A DNA stretch of 52,054 bases from Cryomorpha ignava (GTDB taxonomy: Bacteria; Bacteroidota; Bacteroidia; Flavobacteriales_D; Cryomorphaceae): NCBI RefSeq assembly GCF_010686655.1, contig NZ_JAAGVY010000036.1:1-52054 (forward strand). The letters are read 5' to 3'. Numbering within the stretch: the first letter of the stretch is position 1; every line of letters begins with the position of its first letter. The notes beneath the pieces are model-generated. The model saw only the letters and a program-made list of their open reading frames with translations, did not search any database and was not told the DNA's origin. This document shows positions 17,822-29,085 of the stretch, in pieces. A program made the translations under genes and the position numbers.

Positions 17822-18643
17822 ATGAGCAGTACCGATCAAATGTCTTTTTTGCAGCACCTCGAAGAGTTGCGATGGCGTGTAATTCGCTCTGCTATTGCTA
17901 TTTTAGTTTTTGCATCAGCGGCATTTGTTTTCAAGGGAATCATATTCGATCAGATTATTCTGGCGCCAAAAAAAGCAGATTTTATTACCTATCGCGCAAT
18001 GTGTGCTGTTTCGCAAAAAGTGGGTATGGCTGATGGTCTTTGCGTAACCGCCGATTTTGAACTGCAAAACATCAGTATGAGCGGACAATTTACCAGCCAT
18101 ATTGTGGTGTCCATTATTGCAGGAATTATCCTAGCGTTTCCTTATGTATTCTTCCAATTATGGTCATTTGTAAGACCCGGACTAAAAGATAAAGAGCAAA
18201 ATACGGCGCGTGGTGTGGTGTTTTTTACTTCGCTTCTCTTCTTAAGTGGCGTTGCATTTGGATATTTTCTTATTGCACCTCTTTCAATACAGTTTTTAGG
18301 AGGGTATAAGGTAAGCGATCAGGTAGATAATATTATTACGCTAAACTCGTTTATTACAACCATTACATCAACCACGCTCGCCAGCGGAATAGTGTTTCAG
18401 TTGCCCATGGTTATTTACTTTCTGGCCAAGATTGGTTTGGTTACCCCACAGTCGCTTAAAGCATACAGAAAGCACGCCTTGGTAGGGGTTTTAATTCTGG
18501 CTGCAATTATTACTCCGCCCGACATTACCAGTCAGATTTTGGTAACTTTGCCCCTTGTTGTTTTGTATGAAATAAGCATACACATTGCCAGAATCGTTGT
18601 GAAAAAAGCTAAACGCAATGAGTTGAAATCTTATAATTCTTAA
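17822..18643 (+). CDS. tatC: Twin-arginine translocase subunit TatC
   Basis: 273 residues with the N-terminal signature FLQHLEELRWRVIRS, where the Glu pair contacts the twin-arginine signal, and six hydrophobic helices. The loop FVRPGLKDKEQ is the conserved TatC motif F-x-x-P-G-L. It forms the receptor of the Tat system in the inner membrane together with TatA/B, which are not encoded in this window. The first periplasmic loop is longer than in E. coli (about residues 40-85), which is usual in Bacteroidota. The DUF5686 gene starts 27 bases downstream on the same strand and may be cotranscribed. Confidence 0.96.
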   Translation: MSSTDQMSFLQHLEELRWRVIRSAIAILVFASAAFVFKGIIFDQIILAPKKADFITYRAMCAVSQKVGMADGLCVTADFELQNISMSGQFTSHIVVSIIAGIILAFPYVFFQLWSFVRPGLKDKEQNTARGVVFFTSLLFLSGVAFGYFLIAPLSIQFLGGYKVSDQVDNIITLNSFITTITSTTLASGIVFQLPMVIYFLAKIGLVTPQSLKAYRKHALVGVLILAAIITPPDITSQILVTLPLVVLYEISIHIARIVVKKAKRNELKSYNS

Positions 18644-18670: not shown

Positions 18671-21169
18671 GTGGTAGCTCAAATAAAATATTGCCTTTAT
18701 GCCCAGATGCGGATGTTGCTACTGCTACTTTGCGTTTTGCCTGCTATGCTTGCCTACGGTCAAAAAACCAATGTGTCCGGAAAAATTTACGATGCAAAAA
18801 CCAGAGAATCACTTCCCTTTGTAAACATAGCCTTTAAGGGAAGTAAAATAGGAACCACTTCTAATATTGAGGGTGAATACAGCATTGAAACCTATTATGC
18901 AGAAGACTCTCTCATGGCCAGCTTTGTGGGGTATAAACCACTGGCAAAAGCGGTTAAAAGAGACCAGAGTCAGGTAATTGATTTTTTTCTCGAGCCCGGA
19001 TCATTTAGTCTGGAGGAAGTGGTGATTAGCGCCAAAGATTTTGAGAATCCCGCTCATATCATTCTTAAAAAAATCATTAAGAATAAACCGATAAATAATC
19101 GCGAAAAACTCGATTCATACCAGTATGAAGTTTACAATAAGATTGAGTTTGATCTGAATAATCTTTCAAAGAAATTTACGGAAAGAAAGGTGTTCAAAGA
19201 CTTTGACTTTGTTTTTGATCGAATAGATTCCACTCTGGGAAAAGTAGCCCTTCCTTTTTTTATGACCGAAACGCTTTCGCATTATTATTATCAGCGGCAG
19301 CCAAAAGGGCGAAAAGAAATAATTCATGCCACGAAAATATCGGGTATTGAGAATGAGAGTATAACCCAGTTTCTCGGTCAAATGTATTTGGATGTCAATA
19401 TCTATGATAATTCGCTGGGCATTTTTGGTAAGAATTTTATCAGTCCTATTTCAAATTATGGACTGGCTTTCTATCAGTATTATCTGGTAGATAGCATGTA
19501 TATTGATAATAAATGGTGTTACAGGCTTGATTTTACCCCTAAAAATGAGAGTGAACTCGCCTTTAATGGTCACTTTTGGGTAAATGATACCACCTATGCC
19601 ATTAAAGAAATAGATGCGCGGATTCTAAAAAGTGCCAACATCAATTTTATCACAGATCTACGCGTGCGCCATCAATACCAGGAAGTAGAGAAAGAAGTGT
19701 GGTTGCTCACTAAAGAAAATATACTGGCCGATTTTACAATTGTTGAAGGCGAAATGGGCTTCTACGGGAAAAAGCTTACCACCTACCGCGACTTTGTGAT
19801 AAATGAGCCCAAAGACAATGCATTTTACGGAGGAGCTGAACACGTAATTTCTGAATCGCAGATTAATGAGAAGTCGGATGAATACTGGCGTGAGGCACGT
19901 CACGAAACCATTACCACTGACCAGCAGGCGATCTACGATATGGTGGATAGCTTAAAGACCAATCCGCGATTTATGACCTATATTGATGTCGTAAACTTTC
20001 TTATTCTTGGCTATAAAGTAGAAGGGCCGCTAGAAATAGGACCCGTATTTACTTTTTTAAGTTACAATGAGGTAGAAGGCTTTCGGCCAAAATTTGGTTT
20101 GCGTACCAGCAATGATTTTAGCACAAACTTGCTGCTGGAGGGATATGTAGCTTATGGAACGCGCGATAAGCGGTTTAAATACATGCTGGGAGGGCAGTAT
20201 TTCCTTAGCAAGAAGCCCAGGCAAGTCGTGGGAGCCTATTATTCTGAAGATCTGGAGTTGATAGGGCAGGTGCCAAATTTATTTCCGCGCGACCACTGGA
20301 TACAGTTCTTAACGTCAAGAAATCCACAAAACCGGCTGATTCTCAATAAGCAGGCACGCATTTTTACCGAAAGGGAGTGGTTTACTGGCTTCTCTACAAA
20401 GTTGGAGTTTAAGCGCAGAGATCTCGCAGCACGTGGCGACTGGAAATTTCAGAAAAATGAAGATATAAATGGCGAAGTGCAACCGGTAGATATTTCCTCA
20501 ATTGTGACTTCAGAAGTGTCTGTAGGAGTGCGGTTTGCTTATCGCGAAAATTTCGTTGAAGGCGAGTTCGAGCGGGTGAGCCTTGGAAGTAACTGGCCTA
20601 TTTTGTCTGTGAATGTCGATTTTGGTATTCCGGGTGTATTTGAAAGTGAATACAAGTATCAGAAACTTACCGCATCGGTTTACGATAAAATTCCACTTGG
20701 CCCTTTCGGTACTTTGCGCTATACACTTGAAGGTGGTAGAACCTGGCAGGCATTGCCATACCCATTGCAGTTTGTGCATGCCGGTAGCGAAAGTATTTTT
20801 CAGAATTCGAATGCTTTTAATACCATGAATTATTTTGAGTTTGTCAGTGATCAATACGTGGCTCTGCGCGCCGAACATCATTTCGATGGTCTCTTTTTCA
20901 ATAAAATACCGCTTTTTCAAAAATTGAAGTGGCGCGAGCTTATTGGGGTAAACGCCATTTACGGAAGTTTTAGCGATAAAAACCTCGATCAAATGCTGCT
21001 GCCGCAATATACGTATGCATTTGATACGCGCCCATTCGCGGAAGCGTACGTGGGAATAGAAAATATTTTTAAATTCGTACGAATCGATGCCATTTGGCGA
21101 TTGACATATTTAGATCACCCGCGAACACAGAACTTTGGCGTGCTTATTGGATTTGACATACAGTTCTAA
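18671..21169 (+). CDS. CarboxypepD_reg-like / DUF5686 outer-membrane protein
   Basis: 832 residues from a GTG; an ATG at 18707 (residue 13) followed by LLLLLCVLPAMLAYGQ is at least as likely a start and gives a tidy signal peptide. Residues about 33-110 are a carboxypeptidase-regulatory-like beta-sandwich (VSGKIYDAKTRESLPFVNIA, GTTSNIEGEYSI, FVGYKPL), the domain also found at the N-terminus of SusC-type receptors. The remainder is DUF5686, with a C-terminal half of amphipathic strands ending LIGFDIQF, as expected for an outer-membrane barrel. It lacks the TonB-receptor plug. Function is unknown. It is followed after 9 bases by the lptB-like gene and preceded by tatC. Confidence 0.88.
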   Translation: MVAQIKYCLYAQMRMLLLLLCVLPAMLAYGQKTNVSGKIYDAKTRESLPFVNIAFKGSKIGTTSNIEGEYSIETYYAEDSLMASFVGYKPLAKAVKRDQSQVIDFFLEPGSFSLEEVVISAKDFENPAHIILKKIIKNKPINNREKLDSYQYEVYNKIEFDLNNLSKKFTERKVFKDFDFVFDRIDSTLGKVALPFFMTETLSHYYYQRQPKGRKEIIHATKISGIENESITQFLGQMYLDVNIYDNSLGIFGKNFISPISNYGLAFYQYYLVDSMYIDNKWCYRLDFTPKNESELAFNGHFWVNDTTYAIKEIDARILKSANINFITDLRVRHQYQEVEKEVWLLTKENILADFTIVEGEMGFYGKKLTTYRDFVINEPKDNAFYGGAEHVISESQINEKSDEYWREARHETITTDQQAIYDMVDSLKTNPRFMTYIDVVNFLILGYKVEGPLEIGPVFTFLSYNEVEGFRPKFGLRTSNDFSTNLLLEGYVAYGTRDKRFKYMLGGQYFLSKKPRQVVGAYYSEDLELIGQVPNLFPRDHWIQFLTSRNPQNRLILNKQARIFTEREWFTGFSTKLEFKRRDLAARGDWKFQKNEDINGEVQPVDISSIVTSEVSVGVRFAYRENFVEGEFERVSLGSNWPILSVNVDFGIPGVFESEYKYQKLTASVYDKIPLGPFGTLRYTLEGGRTWQALPYPLQFVHAGSESIFQNSNAFNTMNYFEFVSDQYVALRAEHHFDGLFFNKIPLFQKLKWRELIGVNAIYGSFSDKNLDQMLLPQYTYAFDTRPFAEAYVGIENIFKFVRIDAIWRLTYLDHPRTQNFGVLIGFDIQF

Positions 21170-21178
21170 AAAGGAATT

Positions 21179-21865
21179 ATGATTTTAAAAACCGGTAGTC
21201 TAATTAAGAAGTACAAAAAGAGAACCGTTGTAAAAGGCGTTTCGGTGGAGGTAGCACACTTTTATATGATTGTGGGGCTGGTGCGACCCAATTCGGGAAG
21301 AATTTTTCTGGATAACGAAGATATTACGGATCGCGCAATGTACGAGCGTGCAAAGCTAGGCATCGGCTATCTGCCGCAAGAGGCGAGCGTATTTAGAAAG
21401 CTTAGTGTAGAAGATAATATCAAGGCCGTACTGGAAATGACAAAGCTCACTAAACAGGAGCAGCATATAAAGCTCGAATCGTTAATTGACGACCTTGGCC
21501 TAGACCATGTTCGCACAAATCGCGGCGATTTTCTATCTGGTGGTGAGCGCCGCCGAACTGAAATAGCACGCGCATTGGCTACAGACCCAAAATTTATTTT
21601 GCTCGATGAGCCCTTTGCCGGGGTAGATCCCATTGCTGTAGAAGATATCCAATCTATTGTTGCAGCTCTGAAAAACAAGAACATCGGGATTCTTATTACC
21701 GATCACAATGTACAGGAAACCCTTTCTATTACAGATCGTGCCTACTTGCTCTTTGAAGGAAATATACTTAAGTCAGGAACGGCCGAAGAGCTGGCCGCCG
21801 ATGAGCAGGTGCGAAAAGTGTATCTCGGTAAAAACTTTGAATTGAGACGGAAGGTTTTTGATTGA
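21179..21865 (+). CDS. lptB: LptB-type LPS export ATPase, Walker A segment missing
   Basis: 228 residues. Apart from one region it matches LptB closely: [19 protein letters not shown] (Q-loop), [15 protein letters not shown] (signature), [16 protein letters not shown] (Walker B, catalytic Glu) and [11 protein letters not shown] (H-loop). LptB normally powers lipopolysaccharide extraction with LptFG in the inner membrane. Here the sequence goes from GVSVEV (Val25) through Ala-His directly to FYMIVGL (Phe28). In the family this gap holds the stretch with GPNGAGKT, about 19 residues, so roughly 51 bases are missing in frame and no P-loop lysine remains. The reading frame is intact and the ribosome site AAGGA precedes the ATG by 3 bases. 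As written the protein should not bind ATP normally. Either a real deletion or a sequence or assembly error. Confidence 0.9.
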
Positions 21866-21867
21866 AA

Positions 21868-22125
21868 TTAGGCAACCAATTCCTTCAGACTAAAACTGTA
21901 CTTCTCCATAATTTGATTGGCAAGCAATTTCTTGCACGCTTCATCAACTTTGGCTTCTGCTTCGCTTTTGTCCTTGGCTTTAACTTTTAGCGTAATGTGC
22001 TTTCCTATACGCACATTCGTAATTTCACTCAAACCCAGGTTTTTCATGCTTCCCGATACTGCTTTTCCTTGTGGATCGAGCAGGGCATCTAATGGCATAA
22101 TGTCAATTTCGGCAGTAAATTCCAT
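21868..22125 (-). CDS. purS: Phosphoribosylformylglycinamidine synthase subunit PurS
   Basis: 85 residues, the full size of PurS. Typical features are the opening beta-strand FTAEIDIMPLDALLDPQGKA, the segment VRIGKHITLKVKA and the C-terminal CKKLLANQIMEKYSF. PurS bridges PurL and PurQ in the FGAM synthase complex of purine synthesis in the cytoplasm. It starts 1 base after the pssA stop on the same strand and ends 2 bases from the lptB stop on the opposite strand. PurL and PurQ are not in the window, so its partners are encoded elsewhere. Confidence 0.92.
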   Translation of the reverse strand: MEFTAEIDIMPLDALLDPQGKAVSGSMKNLGLSEITNVRIGKHITLKVKAKDKSEAEAKVDEACKKLLANQIMEKYSFSLKELVA

Positions 22126-22126
22126 T

Positions 22127-22846
22127 CTATTTCTTTATAAAGTAATCGATTATTGAAAGAATAAAGTACAAAAGTAATATAATTGGCAATGCTTGCACTC
22201 CAAAAGCGATTAGTAATGCAAGGCTTCCAAGAATAAGGATAAAACGCAGCTCGTTTCCGGTCCATTTCAGCGACTTAAATTTCAGCGAGAAAAACCGGAT
22301 TTCAGAAATCATTAGTATGGAAATAACTAAAGCAGCAATGTTTATAGAAATCTGCGATTCAGCGAAAGCCAAATACACGCTACCAAGACCAGAGCTTGTG
22401 TTGCTGTAGGCAAGAATAAGCGGAATGGAAAGCCAGAACAAGGCATTGCTCGGCGAGGCAAGACCTATAAAATCAGTAGTTTGCCTTTCGTCGATATTAA
22501 ACTTGGCCAGCCGGTAAGCAGCGAAAGGCGCAATAATTATGGGAGTAAAGGCCCAAATTGAAAATGCAACGTCATTTGCAAAAGCACCGGCCAGATGCAT
22601 GGCTATAAAAGCCGGTGCAAGACCAAAACTAATGAGATCGGCGAGTGAGTCAAGCTGTTTCCCCATTTCGCCCGACACGCCTAAGAGTCTGGCTGCCAAG
22701 CCATCAAAGAAGTCTAAAAAAGCACCCGCCAAAATTAGAATGGCTGCAAGGGGAAGGTTACCTTGCGTGACGAAATAAACCGATATAGCGCCGCAAAGCA
22801 AATTGCTAAGCGTGATGATATTAGGAATCTGATATTTTACTTTCAT
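22127..22846 (-). CDS. pssA: CDP-diacylglycerol--serine O-phosphatidyltransferase
   Basis: 239 residues from the ATG at 22846 (MKVKYQIPNIITLSNL). The open frame extends 54 codons further up to 23008 but that would overlap the divergent porV-like gene and carries no family homology, so the shorter start is chosen. The CDP-alcohol phosphotransferase signature D-G-x2-A-R-x8-G-x3-D-x3-D is present as FFDGLAARLLGVSGEMGKQLDSLAD. Several membrane helices follow. It makes phosphatidylserine, the precursor of phosphatidylethanolamine, in the inner membrane. Cotranscribed with purS. Confidence 0.94.
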   Translation of the reverse strand: MKVKYQIPNIITLSNLLCGAISVYFVTQGNLPLAAILILAGAFLDFFDGLAARLLGVSGEMGKQLDSLADLISFGLAPAFIAMHLAGAFANDVAFSIWAFTPIIIAPFAAYRLAKFNIDERQTTDFIGLASPSNALFWLSIPLILAYSNTSSGLGSVYLAFAESQISINIAALVISILMISEIRFFSLKFKSLKWTGNELRFILILGSLALLIAFGVQALPIILLLYFILSIIDYFIKK

Positions 22847-22927
22847 TTGCGCGAAATTAATGAATCCAAAAGCAATTTTTTTACGTTCAATTAGTTTTAG
22901 ATCAGAATCGATCGCTAACTTCGAATT

Positions 22928-24022
22928 ATGTTGAAGATTAAATCCCCTCCCGGTTTCGGGTTGATGCTTATATTTCTCATGGGGCTCACCACCCTTTCTC
23001 AAGCGCAAACGCGGAAATACAGCAATGAGTTTTTAAGCATTGGCGTAGGAGCCAGAGCTTTGGGCATGTCGGGTGCCAATGTGGCCAGTGTTACTGATGT
23101 TACTGCGGGTTTCTGGAATCCGGCAAACCTTGTAGATATTAAAGCCGATTTGGAAATAGCCGGAATGCACGCCGAATATTTTGCAGGCATAGCCCAATAC
23201 GATTATGGCGCTATTGCAAAACCTATTGATTCTACCAGTGTGCTCGCACTTTCAGTTATTCGTTTTGGCGTTGACGGAATTCCAAATACCACCCAGCTGA
23301 TTGATGCAGATGGAAATCTAAATTACGATAGAATATCAACCTTTTCGGCAGTTGACTACGGCTTTGTACTTAGCTATGCGAAAAAGCTTAAAGTGCCGGG
23401 CTTATCAGTGGGTGGTAATGTAAAAGTGGTGCACCGCTTTATTGGCGATTTTGCGAAAAGCTGGGGTTTTGGAATAGATCTGGCAGCAACTTATCGCCTT
23501 AAAAATTGGCGATTTTCGGCAATGGGGCGCGACCTCACTACTACTTATAATGCATGGACTTACTCGCTCGACGACGCTACAAAAGATGTATTTGTAGCAA
23601 CAGGAAACGAGCTTCCTGAAAATGGACTCGAAATTACTCTTCCCAAAATAGTGCTTGGAGCAGCCTACAAGAAGGAGCTCAACAAATTTGCTCTTCTGGG
23701 CGAGGTTAATGCAGTGATTTCTACAGACGGCCAGCGCAACGTTTTGCTAAGCGCCGACCCCATAAGTGTGGAGCCGCTGATTGGTTTAGAAGCGAGTTAC
23801 ATAAATTTGATTTACCTTAGAGCTGGACTTGGAAATATGCAGCGGATAAAAACATTTAGAGGTACTGAAGAAATTTCCATCCAGCCCAATCTTGGCGTCG
23901 GGTTAAGGTTAGGAAATTTCCACCTCGATTATGCAATTACCAATATTGGAAATGTGTCGAATACTTTGTACTCGAATATTTTCTCGCTAAAATTCCAGGT
24001 GTTTAAAGCTCCCGGTTCGTGA
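22928..24022 (+). CDS. porV2: PorV/PorQ-family outer-membrane protein (PorV2-like)
   Basis: 364 residues with a signal peptide ending SQAQT. The opening of the mature protein, FLSIGVGARALGMSGANVAS and then DVTAGFWNPANL, is the hallmark of the PorV/PorQ family, which forms FadL-like 14-strand barrels. PorV shuttles T9SS cargo from the secretion pore to the PorU sortase. This copy overlaps the next gene, a large PorU-like C25 protein, by GTGA (24019-24022), which suggests that the two proteins work as a pair. Because the partner is much longer than classical PorU, this is more likely the PorV2-type paralogue than the main PorV. Upstream is divergent pssA, with a TAACTTCG box about 10 bases before the ATG. 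Confidence 0.82.
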   Translation: MLKIKSPPGFGLMLIFLMGLTTLSQAQTRKYSNEFLSIGVGARALGMSGANVASVTDVTAGFWNPANLVDIKADLEIAGMHAEYFAGIAQYDYGAIAKPIDSTSVLALSVIRFGVDGIPNTTQLIDADGNLNYDRISTFSAVDYGFVLSYAKKLKVPGLSVGGNVKVVHRFIGDFAKSWGFGIDLAATYRLKNWRFSAMGRDLTTTYNAWTYSLDDATKDVFVATGNELPENGLEITLPKIVLGAAYKKELNKFALLGEVNAVISTDGQRNVLLSADPISVEPLIGLEASYINLIYLRAGLGNMQRIKTFRGTEEISIQPNLGVGLRLGNFHLDYAITNIGNVSNTLYSNIFSLKFQVFKAPGS

Positions 24023-27000
24023 AAAAAATAGGATTAATCCTTTGGTTCGCTCTTCTTACTGCAGTTTCCTTTGGTCAACCATTTGGAAATGAGTGGATTC
24101 AGTATGGCCAAAAACATTACCGCATTCCTATTTTCGAAGATGGAGTTTACCGCATTACCTACCAGAATTTTGTAGCTGCCGGTATTCCCGTTTCGCTGAT
24201 TGACCCTCAAAATATACAAATGTTTGCCTTTGCGCAAGAAGTTCCCATTTTTGTGAGCGATGGGCAAGATGGCGTTTTTAATTCTGGCGACTATGTTGAA
24301 TTTATCGGCGAGAAGAACGACGGGAGGAGAGAGGCGGGACTATACAATGCTCCGCAAGACCAGGGAAATCCCGATTACAGCCTCTTCAACGACACTGTGC
24401 GGTATTATCTCACCGTAACTCCCGGCGGCAATCACCTTAGGTTCTCAAATGCAAACGACCAGAATTTTGATGCATATGCGCCCGTACCTTATGTATGGAA
24501 ACAGTCGAAACTTGTTTTCTCAAACCGGTATTTCGATCAGCCGCAGCTCCTCGATCAGCCGCCTTCAAATCAGCCAAATTTCAGACTTTCACTCAGTGAG
24601 TTTATTGCCGGCGAGGGCTGGTTGAGCAATCCCATTACACTCAGTAGCACTGCCTTTACGGCAAATGTTCCGACTGCTAATGCATACACCGGATCTGACG
24701 TTCCACCTGCCGAGGCCACAACCGTTGTGGTAGGAGTGAGCGATATGAGCGATACCGGAAACGACCATTTTATTCAGGTAAAGTATGGAGCCGAACAAGC
24801 CTTGGTGGTAAATTATCAGTACAATGGCTACCGCATAAATACATTTGATTTCAATATCCCAAATGCGTCCCTGGGCGCCACTCAAACCCCTATTTTGCAC
24901 CAAGTGGTAAATGCACTAGGCATAACGCGCGACGACCAGGCCATTGCCAAAACCGAAATTACCTATCCACATAGCACCAATTTGGCGGAAGCCGATTTTT
25001 TCCGGTTTCAATACCGCTTAAATACCGCACAGAGTAAAACCCGGTTTGATTTCTCAAATATTTTGGGAGCTAATCCCCGTATTTATACGCTCGGCACCAA
25101 CGCACAGCGGGTTGCCCTTTCGGCAAATGGAGCGAGCTATAGAGGCTTGATAGCCAATAATTTTGACTTGGAAAAATTTGATTGTCTTCTGGTGACGGAT
25201 GCAACCGTGAAATCTATTTCGGGAATAGAAACTACCGGAAACAACGGGTTTTTTACCAATTTTGGTCAAACACAGATAGATTCGGCCTTCGTAATTATTA
25301 CCCATAGTTCGCTGATGGTTCCTGCCCAGCAATACGCCAATTACAGGCAGCAAAAGTTTAACACCATTCTCGTAAATGTCGATGAACTTTACGACCAGTT
25401 TGGTTTCGGAGTTGAAAAAAGCGGAATGTCTATTCGCAATTTTGCTAATTATATTCTTCAAACCTGGTCTTCCACACCGCAGCACTTACTTCTTTTGGGG
25501 AAAGATATTCGTACAGCTTCTATCGGAAGTTTAGCAGGCACACGCCGAAGTCCGGTGCACTTTGCAAATAGCCTTGTTCCATCTCTCGGTTTTCCGCCTA
25601 GCGACAATTATTTAACCCAGGGTCTTGCCAATACCTTTCTGGAGCCCGCAATGCGCACGGGTCGTGTAAGTGCCAAGTCGCCCGAAGAGGTGGAATGGTA
25701 TCTCGATAAACTGCAAACCTTTGAGTCGCAACCACCGGCTATATGGATGAAAAATGTAATGCATTTAGGGGGTGGTGGAAATATAGCAGAGCAAAACCGG
25801 TTTGCAAATCATCTTGCTTCTTATGAAACGGCAATCGAAGATTCGAGTTTTGGGGGAGTTGTGACAACATTTTTAAAGTCAGGTTCAGATCCTATTCAAA
25901 TAAATGTAAGCGAAGAAGTGTCAAATCTTATTGAAAATGAAGGCGTTTCGCTTATGACGTTTTTCGCTCATGCCGGATCTGAAGGTTTTGACCAGTCTAT
26001 AGACAATCCGCAGAATTTTGACTGGAATGGAAAGTATCCGTTTCTTTTAGGAAATGGCTGTTACAGCGGAGATTACCATAGTCCTGGAGCCGGAAGTACC
26101 AGTGAAAAGTATACCATTCTAAACCAACAGGGAGTCATTGGATTTCTGGCTTCTGTAGAGTTGGGGATTGAAGGCGATTTGCACGCATTCAGTTCAGCTT
26201 TTTACAAACATGTTTCAAAATTGAGCTACGCACAAACCATTGGAAGCCAGATTAGAAATTCACTTTCGGATGTAGCAGCACCTACAGTTTTGCGCCGCTA
26301 CCTATGCTATGATATGGGCTTGCAAGGCGATCCTGGCGTGGTGCTCAATTCTTTTCCGTGGCCCGATTTTGAGATAACGGCACAAGATGTCTTTTTTACT
26401 CCACAAGAAATTACGGCCGATATTGACAGCTTTACAGTAAAAGTAGCTGTGAAAAACATTGGGCGAGCTACCAATCAACCATTCGCGGTAACGCTAGAAC
26501 ACCATACACCTGAAGGGATAGGCGACTCAGTGTATGTGTATCAAATGAATGGACTGTACAACCGCGATACAGCCAGTTTCAGGCTTCCGGTAGATTTGCA
26601 GTACGGCGTTGGCCTTCATCAATTTAATGTGTTTGTTGATTTACCCGAAAATGTCATTCGCGAACTAGATGGCTTTGAGCAAGTTAATAATCAAGTCATT
26701 GGCAAGGAGCTTTTTATATCCAATGGCGGTCTTATTCCGATTTACCCGTATCCCTTTGCAGTAATTCCGCAGAAAGATCCCGTTTTGCGTGCATCTACAG
26801 GAAATCCTCTGGCCGAAGAACGCACCTATCGCATTGAGATTGACACCACAGATTTGTTCAATAGCCCGCTTTTGCAAACTACCGAAATAGTAGAGACCGG
26901 AGGTGTAATAGAATGGCAACCCACGCTCAATTATCCCGATAGCATTGTCTATTTCTGGCGCTGCGCCGAGCTTACCGACACTGAAACACTTTGGCGTGAA

Positions 27001-29085
27001 AGCTCCTTTCAATACATTCCTGAAAAATTGGGCTGGGGACAAGCGCAGATATTCCAGTTTAAAAACAACAACTTTTTTCTCACGGAATTTAACCGAACCG
27101 AACGCAGGGTAGATTTTTACAGTGGAACTGTAAATCTGCGCAATCGGGTAATTGGAAACTCTTTTGCGCTTTCTAATAATATTGTACTCAATAATACCGA
27201 AGTTGAATATGGAGCCTGTGGAACCTCGCCGTCGGTGCATTTGGCAGTTTTCGACCCCATTACTTTCGAAGCCTGGGGCACAAATTACGATGGTGCAAAC
27301 CCCGATCATAATTTTGGGAATGCCAACAATGGAGGCGCCTGCCGGGCAAGAGTTGAATATTACTTCATTTATCGACAAAGTTCTGCTACGCAAATGCAGG
27401 CTCTGGCTGATTTGTTGCTATCGGAAACCATTCCAGATGGCCATTATGTGGTTCTCTACACCATCAGGAATGTAAATTACGAGCTCTGGGACAATACACC
27501 CGATATTTATACCGCATTTCAATCGCTTGGAGCAACAATGATAGGTGCCGAATCTGCGCAAGACAGTGTGCCATTCTCGCTTATTCTCCGAAAGGGCGAC
27601 CCGAGCTTTGTATATGAGCAATACGGCGACACGATTAATGAAGTGCTCTTAAACAGCGTGAATATTCCATCAAGCGGAAGCGAAGGCACGATGACGACTC
27701 AAAAAATTGGGCCGTCGAAAAATTGGAAAACAGCCAGCTGGAACACCTTTTCGCTAGACGCAAATGAAGGAGATAATTCACAGATTAAAATTATCGGTAT
27801 CGATGCAAATGGCTTAGAAACAGATATTCCCGGTGGTGAATTCTCTGCCGATGATGATGAAATAGATCTCTCAAATCTGGTTTCTGCAGATCAATATCCT
27901 TATTTACGACTTTCGGCTCATCATGAAGATCCGCAGAATTTAACACCCCTGCAGATTAATCGCTGGCACGTACTTTACGATCAAGTGCCAGAAGCGGCCG
28001 TTGATCCGAATCATTTTTATGTTTTTCAAAATAAAGAATTACAGCAAGGTCAGGCAGGTTATATTGCTGTTGCTATTGCCAATGTAAGCGATCACGATAT
28101 GGATTCACTTCTAGTTAATTACTGGATTGAAGACGGTGATAGAAACCAGGTTGAAATTCCGTATCCGCGGCAAGATTCGCTTCGGAAAGGAGAGGTTTTA
28201 ATCGACACCGTTTACTTCGACACCCGAAATCTTACTGGTAATAATACGCTTTGGGTTGAGGTTAATCCGCGAGGCGATAGCGGTTTATACGATCAGCCGG
28301 AGCAATCGCATTTTAATAATTTGCTTCAGATTCCATTTTCGGTAAGCCGCGACAATCAGAATCCGCTGCTGGATGTCACTTTCGATGGAATTCATATTAT
28401 TAATGGTGAGATTGTATCGCCAAGTCCTGAGGTTTTGATTGTACTAAAAGACGAAAATCCATTTCTTATCATGGACGAACCATCTGATACAGCTCTGTTT
28501 AAAGTGTTTATTTCTTCGCCTGGCGGGCAGTTGGTTCAGCAGTATTTTAATTCGTCGACAGACAATATTCTGGAGTTTATTCCTGCGATAAATTCAAAAA
28601 ATCGCGCTAAAATATTCTACCGACCCAAACTTAAAGACGATGGCAAGTACAGTCTTTTGATTCAGGCAACAGATAAATCGGGAAATCAATCGGCAAATAT
28701 TGACTACCAGATAGAATTTGAGGTCGTAAATGAATCTACAATTTCTGAAGTGCTCAATTATCCAAATCCTTTTTCGACCAGTACCCAGTTTGTTTTTACC
28801 CTTACGGGAACGGAGGTTCCAGATGAATTCAAGATTCAAATCATGACTATAAGTGGTAAGATTGTGCGAGAGATTATGCAACAAGAATTTGGCCCAATCA
28901 GAATAGGTAGAAATTTTTCAGAATACCGCTGGGATGGCCGCGATGAATATGGCGACCGGCTCGCCAACGGAGTTTATTTGTACCGGGTTATTGCGCGACT
29001 CAATGGCGAGAATATTGATAAAAGAGAAAACGCCGCTTCACAGTATTTTACAAAATCGTGGGGCAAGATGGTCCTTTTTAAGTAG
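24019..29085 (+). CDS. porU2: Giant C25-peptidase-type T9SS sortase relative (PorU2-like)
   Basis: 1688 residues from a GTG overlapping the previous stop. Signal peptide ILWFALLTAVSFGQ. The gingipain-type (C25) catalytic domain spans about 430-740, with His651 in TFFAHAGSEGFDQ and Cys681 in LLGNGCYSGDYH, 30 residues apart as expected for this dyad. A CARDB/Ig-like region follows, then a long beta-rich middle. The C-terminus (about 1590-1680) is a FlgD-like Ig domain: LNYPNPFSTSTQFVF, then YRWDGRDEYGDRLANGVYLYRV. PorU proper cuts the sorting signal and attaches cargo to A-LPS; PorU2-type proteins are longer, and their role is less clear. The overlap with a PorV-like gene supports a cargo-processing role at the outer membrane. 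Confidence 0.82.
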   Translation: MKKIGLILWFALLTAVSFGQPFGNEWIQYGQKHYRIPIFEDGVYRITYQNFVAAGIPVSLIDPQNIQMFAFAQEVPIFVSDGQDGVFNSGDYVEFIGEKNDGRREAGLYNAPQDQGNPDYSLFNDTVRYYLTVTPGGNHLRFSNANDQNFDAYAPVPYVWKQSKLVFSNRYFDQPQLLDQPPSNQPNFRLSLSEFIAGEGWLSNPITLSSTAFTANVPTANAYTGSDVPPAEATTVVVGVSDMSDTGNDHFIQVKYGAEQALVVNYQYNGYRINTFDFNIPNASLGATQTPILHQVVNALGITRDDQAIAKTEITYPHSTNLAEADFFRFQYRLNTAQSKTRFDFSNILGANPRIYTLGTNAQRVALSANGASYRGLIANNFDLEKFDCLLVTDATVKSISGIETTGNNGFFTNFGQTQIDSAFVIITHSSLMVPAQQYANYRQQKFNTILVNVDELYDQFGFGVEKSGMSIRNFANYILQTWSSTPQHLLLLGKDIRTASIGSLAGTRRSPVHFANSLVPSLGFPPSDNYLTQGLANTFLEPAMRTGRVSAKSPEEVEWYLDKLQTFESQPPAIWMKNVMHLGGGGNIAEQNRFANHLASYETAIEDSSFGGVVTTFLKSGSDPIQINVSEEVSNLIENEGVSLMTFFAHAGSEGFDQSIDNPQNFDWNGKYPFLLGNGCYSGDYHSPGAGSTSEKYTILNQQGVIGFLASVELGIEGDLHAFSSAFYKHVSKLSYAQTIGSQIRNSLSDVAAPTVLRRYLCYDMGLQGDPGVVLNSFPWPDFEITAQDVFFTPQEITADIDSFTVKVAVKNIGRATNQPFAVTLEHHTPEGIGDSVYVYQMNGLYNRDTASFRLPVDLQYGVGLHQFNVFVDLPENVIRELDGFEQVNNQVIGKELFISNGGLIPIYPYPFAVIPQKDPVLRASTGNPLAEERTYRIEIDTTDLFNSPLLQTTEIVETGGVIEWQPTLNYPDSIVYFWRCAELTDTETLWRESSFQYIPEKLGWGQAQIFQFKNNNFFLTEFNRTERRVDFYSGTVNLRNRVIGNSFALSNNIVLNNTEVEYGACGTSPSVHLAVFDPITFEAWGTNYDGANPDHNFGNANNGGACRARVEYYFIYRQSSATQMQALADLLLSETIPDGHYVVLYTIRNVNYELWDNTPDIYTAFQSLGATMIGAESAQDSVPFSLILRKGDPSFVYEQYGDTINEVLLNSVNIPSSGSEGTMTTQKIGPSKNWKTASWNTFSLDANEGDNSQIKIIGIDANGLETDIPGGEFSADDDEIDLSNLVSADQYPYLRLSAHHEDPQNLTPLQINRWHVLYDQVPEAAVDPNHFYVFQNKELQQGQAGYIAVAIANVSDHDMDSLLVNYWIEDGDRNQVEIPYPRQDSLRKGEVLIDTVYFDTRNLTGNNTLWVEVNPRGDSGLYDQPEQSHFNNLLQIPFSVSRDNQNPLLDVTFDGIHIINGEIVSPSPEVLIVLKDENPFLIMDEPSDTALFKVFISSPGGQLVQQYFNSSTDNILEFIPAINSKNRAKIFYRPKLKDDGKYSLLIQATDKSGNQSANIDYQIEFEVVNESTISEVLNYPNPFSTSTQFVFTLTGTEVPDEFKIQIMTISGKIVREIMQQEFGPIRIGRNFSEYRWDGRDEYGDRLANGVYLYRVIARLNGENIDKRENAASQYFTKSWGKMVLFK

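Follow-up and report, generated by a model that had tools for sequence, protein, structure and literature searches.

The question raised by this locus is whether the cells of Cryomorpha ignava carry an lptB gene, encoding the ATPase of the LPS export ABC transporter, without its Walker A loop, or whether the deposited sequence is at fault. The window analyzed here, 52,054 nucleotides of contig NZ_JAAGVY010000036.1, was the subject of an earlier note made from the sequence alone, which offered three explanations: a sequence or assembly error, a second lptB, or a degenerate copy that persists in a structural role. The first is our best reading, though not proven; the second found no support and the third is disfavored. 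We consider it likely that the absence of 51 bases is an error of assembly, gap-joining or consensus in the deposited record: the genome's ordinary single lptB would have lost its P-loop segment from the contig in this way, and the living cells most likely carry a complete gene. An option absent from that note, a genuine, very recent loss-of-function allele, is second most likely after record error. The probabilities that we attach to all these readings are judgements. The gene and its surroundings comprise the following features:

17822–18643, + strand: tatC (Pfam), syntenic in those relatives whose contigs reach it
18671–21169, + strand: upstream neighbor, a CarbopepD_reg_2 and DUF5686 protein (Pfam), syntenic in relatives
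21179–21865, + strand: lptB, 228 residues, LPS export ABC transporter ATPase without 17 residues (TIGR04406, 310.2 bits; 89% identity to the nearest relative)
21251–21262, + strand: deletion junction GTA GCA CAC TTT (V25-A-H-F28), with 51 nt missing by comparison with relatives' sequences
21260–21865, + strand: intact remainder, with Q-loop, LSGGE signature, Walker B, H-loop and C-terminal VYLGxxF (alignment of LptB proteins)
21868–22125, − strand: downstream neighbor purS (Pfam), adjoining lptB in 7/9 relatives
22127–23008, − strand: CDP-alcohol phosphatidyltransferase (Pfam), found in the same 7/9 relatives as purS

The reading frame at 21179–21865 contains no internal stop, and the contig in the whole-genome record carries a sequence identical to the window at lptB. 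The best curated family for the 228-residue product is TIGR04406 (LptB), whose cut-off of 240 bits it exceeds, so that it belongs to the family by score; only residues 27–222 are aligned, on profile positions 43–239. Solved examples of LptB include PDB 8frp, 6mjp, 6mit and 6mgf. In an alignment of 20 LptB proteins, the segments that we take to be the Q-loop, the signature (LSGGE), Walker B (ILLDEP) and the H-loop (TDH) are all present, in keeping with the note's description of the remaining ABC motifs as intact and LptB-like. The C-terminal VYLGxxF, treated as an LptB feature in an account of the E. coli protein (PMC6703430), is likewise kept (Y215, L216, G217 and F220). The protein is therefore like other members of TIGR04406 in score, locus and these motifs, but differs from them in lacking 17 residues that include the whole of Walker A (GxxGxGK[ST]), the one motif among those checked at which it falls short of a functional ABC ATPase. 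Its closest full-length counterpart, encoded in the nearest genome (G004; locus L013, 1498–2232, − strand), has the same neighbors but contains QGEIVGLLGPNGAGKTTTF and scores 374.5 bits against TIGR04406.

In the same alignment of 20 proteins, V25-A26-H27 and F28 are separated by a single clean gap; the relatives' sequence at this place is V-x-Q-GEIVGLLGPNGAGKTT[S/T]-F. A MAFFT alignment of 87 loci shows exactly 17 columns missing, equal to 51 nt, with the consensus GEIVGLLGPNGAGKTTS; the lost segment takes in the entire P-loop, together with a core strand and the beginning of the helix that follows. Translation and alignments thus agree with the note that Val25-Ala-His-Phe28 stands in place of the P-loop stretch and that about 51 bases are gone without loss of frame; its place, size and frame were right. 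G[PE]xGxGK[TS] is carried by every one of the 86 related loci (six from within the family, plus the best 80 of 585 confirmed matches among genome contigs), and the window alone lacks it; the genus is represented in this comparison set by one genome only. An order-wide search at E 1e-60 found matches in 371 of 399 genomes and none in 28. Every listed match other than the window's own begins at residue 25 or 26, as expected if the 17 residues are present and interrupt the alignment. Within the family, lptB was found in six of the seven other genomes; the seventh (G005, estimated completeness 96%) gave no match at E 1e-60. The relevant contig of that genome (C214) ends inside the DUF5686 gene, before the lptB position, and a draft gap has probably swallowed the gene.

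Gene order identifies the window gene as the orthologous lptB at its conserved genome position. Stretches from nine relatives all contain an lptB match, adjoined by the DUF5686 protein in all eight that reach that side; the ninth (L109) falls short of it, ending about 90 bp upstream. Against these relatives, the window's lptB shows 17 gap positions in seven comparisons and 18 in the other two, versus 0–5 in the neighbors tatC, DUF5686 and purS. Higher counts occur in the phosphatidyltransferase (up to 15) and in a long ORF at 24019 (1,692 residues, up to 46 gap positions), where the gaps appear to be spread among less conserved sequence.

Turning to function, several properties described for E. 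coli LptB bear on the missing segment. The account in PMC6703430 describes the ATP-binding domains shared with other ABC ATPases as essential, proposes that ATP binding triggers transport, and places Tyr234 of the C-terminal domain in contact with Walker A residues G36 and P37; the window protein keeps the matching Tyr but is without its Walker A partners. Some single substitutions in or near Walker A (G33A/C, L35Q, T43S and T45A) are also described there as suppressors, so that point changes in this region can be tolerated. Loss of the entire P-loop is another matter: such an LptB presumably cannot bind ATP, and so could not drive LPS extraction, and our best reading is that the deposited lptB is no working allele. 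LptB, LptF and LptG are reported to be essential in E. coli (PMC5548808). In this lineage, too, LptB is presumably needed. If the protein is inactive and the function needed, the sequence would not be what the cells carry. Some caution comes from Neisseria meningitidis, described as viable without LPS (PMC6598057): LPS is not essential everywhere, and we count this against an error in the record.

Predicted structures are consistent with a compromised protein. By the numbering of the full-length model, the gap takes out strand 30–34 and the P-loop and cuts off the beginning of helix 39–49. The window protein was modeled with a pLDDT of 57.5 and a pTM of 0.49 (five models, 47.4–57.5); for the nearest full-length relative the same 20 sequences gave 81.7 and 0.75 (five models, 44.5–81.7). 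With so shallow an alignment, and with the control's models varying so widely, this comparison is supporting only. The genome also contains a gene for LpxC and two LptF/LptG genes (PF03739 matches). Together with the single LptB match in the genome, the P-loop in all 86 relatives, the order-wide matches, the normal constraint on the gene outside the gap and the poor model, these genes are counted in favor of a record error.

The main alternative is a genuine and very recent in-frame deletion, such that the sequenced clone or dominant strain has a dead or crippled lptB, with LPS export dispensable or intact cells coexisting. We regard this as possible but unlikely. It accords with the open frame, the single copy and the otherwise clean assembly, and the undecayed remainder of the gene fits a young event. 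Outside the gap, pN between the window and six family members is 0.083–0.133, compared with 0.068–0.144 among those six, the synonymous sites being near saturation. At 89 near-invariant positions the window departs twice (E to D and F to L), while among the 86 relatives 50 depart nowhere, 30 once and six twice or more. This count, slightly above the relatives' average, leans a little toward a recent deletion, although both substitutions are conservative and two close relatives also have the Leu. Judged from these comparisons, the gene outside the gap seems as constrained as those of its relatives and does not look decayed; the deletion would therefore be young or not real. Retention of the LpxC and LptF/LptG genes speaks against a real deletion. 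Riemerella anatipestifer, which we take to belong to the same phylum as the source genome, offers a further comparison. In that species, an lptD deletion is described as not obtainable (PMC6598057), which also argues against a tolerated loss.

The junction itself bears on both readings. The pattern used was fitted by 81 of 87 loci; of these, 18 have C as the third base of the codon preceding Phe, none has CAC there, and 78 have CAA or CAG following x. From these codons, the likeliest reading of GCA CAC TTT is that a Gln codon is broken off after its CA and joined to the third base of a Ser/Thr codon, and the missing 51 nt are most simply placed between 21258 and 21259. The lost bases themselves are not in the record; judged from the relatives' codons, the junction ends seem to share no bases, unlike what slippage would leave. 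This speaks against slippage, and hence against that origin for a recent deletion, and equally against an overlap-based mis-join, which is no more favored. No hairpin cause emerged, with a DNA fold z-score of 0.43 and no inverted repeats in 21100–21400. No direct repeat adjoins the junction, but this says little, because a repeat-mediated loss would leave one copy. Base composition around the site is unremarkable.

The quality of the assembly weighs on the other side. A random error keeps the frame about one time in three, and we count the kept frame against an error. Gaps of at least eight residues on the source-genome side were confined to lptB, both against G001 (126 non-overlapping ortholog-like pairs, 43,794 aligned residues) and against G004 (19 pairs, 8,703 residues); G001 itself has four such gaps in its comparison with the source genome. 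These counts span 1.24 Mb of G001, 0.42 Mb of G004 and about 0.85 Mb of the source genome, with antisense shadow ORFs left out. As lptB is the sole large gap on the source-genome side in both comparisons, a generally bad assembly finds no support, and the otherwise clean assembly counts against an error in the record. Contig ends near lptB point the other way. Three family drafts end contigs about 90, 270 and 480 bases upstream of the gene (G002, G007 and G005, the last figure assuming the window's spacing), and in G023, of the same order, the first base of contig C33 lies two bases ahead of the Gln codon at the head of the lptB P-loop segment, so that an assembly has broken at this place. These ends suggest a place awkward to assemble, but are weak evidence, having been spotted after the fact. 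A literature search found nothing on an LptB Walker A deletion as an assembly error, nor on LptB Walker A K42.

Should the record be in error, as we favor, its users would need caution: a normally essential gene is miscoded while its frame stays open, and checks for broken frames would accordingly pass it. A real deletion would instead make the organism a natural test of whether this lineage can dispense with LPS export.

It is very unlikely, in our estimation, that the organism has another, intact lptB that the assembly has missed. The assembly (5.0 Mb in 149 contigs) is 99.85% complete, but completeness is only an estimate and so many contigs leave gaps. Searches of these 5.0 Mb with the window protein, a full-length relative and the family model found no second LptB, so that the note's suggestion of another copy elsewhere in the genome finds no support in this assembly. 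The window protein matched 42 sequences, its own among them, the next best being 35% identical; the top model for that next-best match is a betaine/proline/choline-type ATPase, although its score lies under that model's cut-off. The full-length relative gave 55 matches, of which the second-best is 30% identical, and the family model gave a single match over its cut-off of 240 bits (300.8 bits, the next scoring 153.6). Moreover, the order-wide search, with seven candidates scored per genome, gave one match per genome at E 1e-60 among the matches listed, and it is the window's copy that occupies the syntenic position.

Walker A is present in all 11 other ABC ATPases checked (of 41 other genome matches to the window's LptB), which rules out a genome-wide loss of the motif. 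A degenerate but maintained LptB, for instance one whose role is structural while a different ATPase of the genome supplies catalysis, would fit both this observation and the survival of the LptB C-terminus and every other motif, but is more improbable still: a core strand is lost and the model poor, this is the sole copy found and sits at the conserved lptB position, the short form occurs in none of the 86 relatives, comparison with them revealed no clear compensating change, and LptB is described as acting as a homodimer (PMC6703430) while no second LptB was found. That a single-copy LptB still supports LPS export without a P-loop, powered by some other ATPase or in a different way, is the least credible proposition of all.

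Beyond the genome sets, no near-identical sequence was found among the viral contigs scanned, which yielded two relatives, 49% and 26% identical. The closer one lies near the edge of a contig filed as viral (IMGVR_UViG_3300024268_002860), which is possibly host DNA. No tRNAs were found in the window. Past the phosphatidyltransferase, two ORFs (22928–29085) keep their order in those family members whose contigs reach that far; the first has no Pfam match, and we take the pair to resemble PorV and PorU of type IX secretion.
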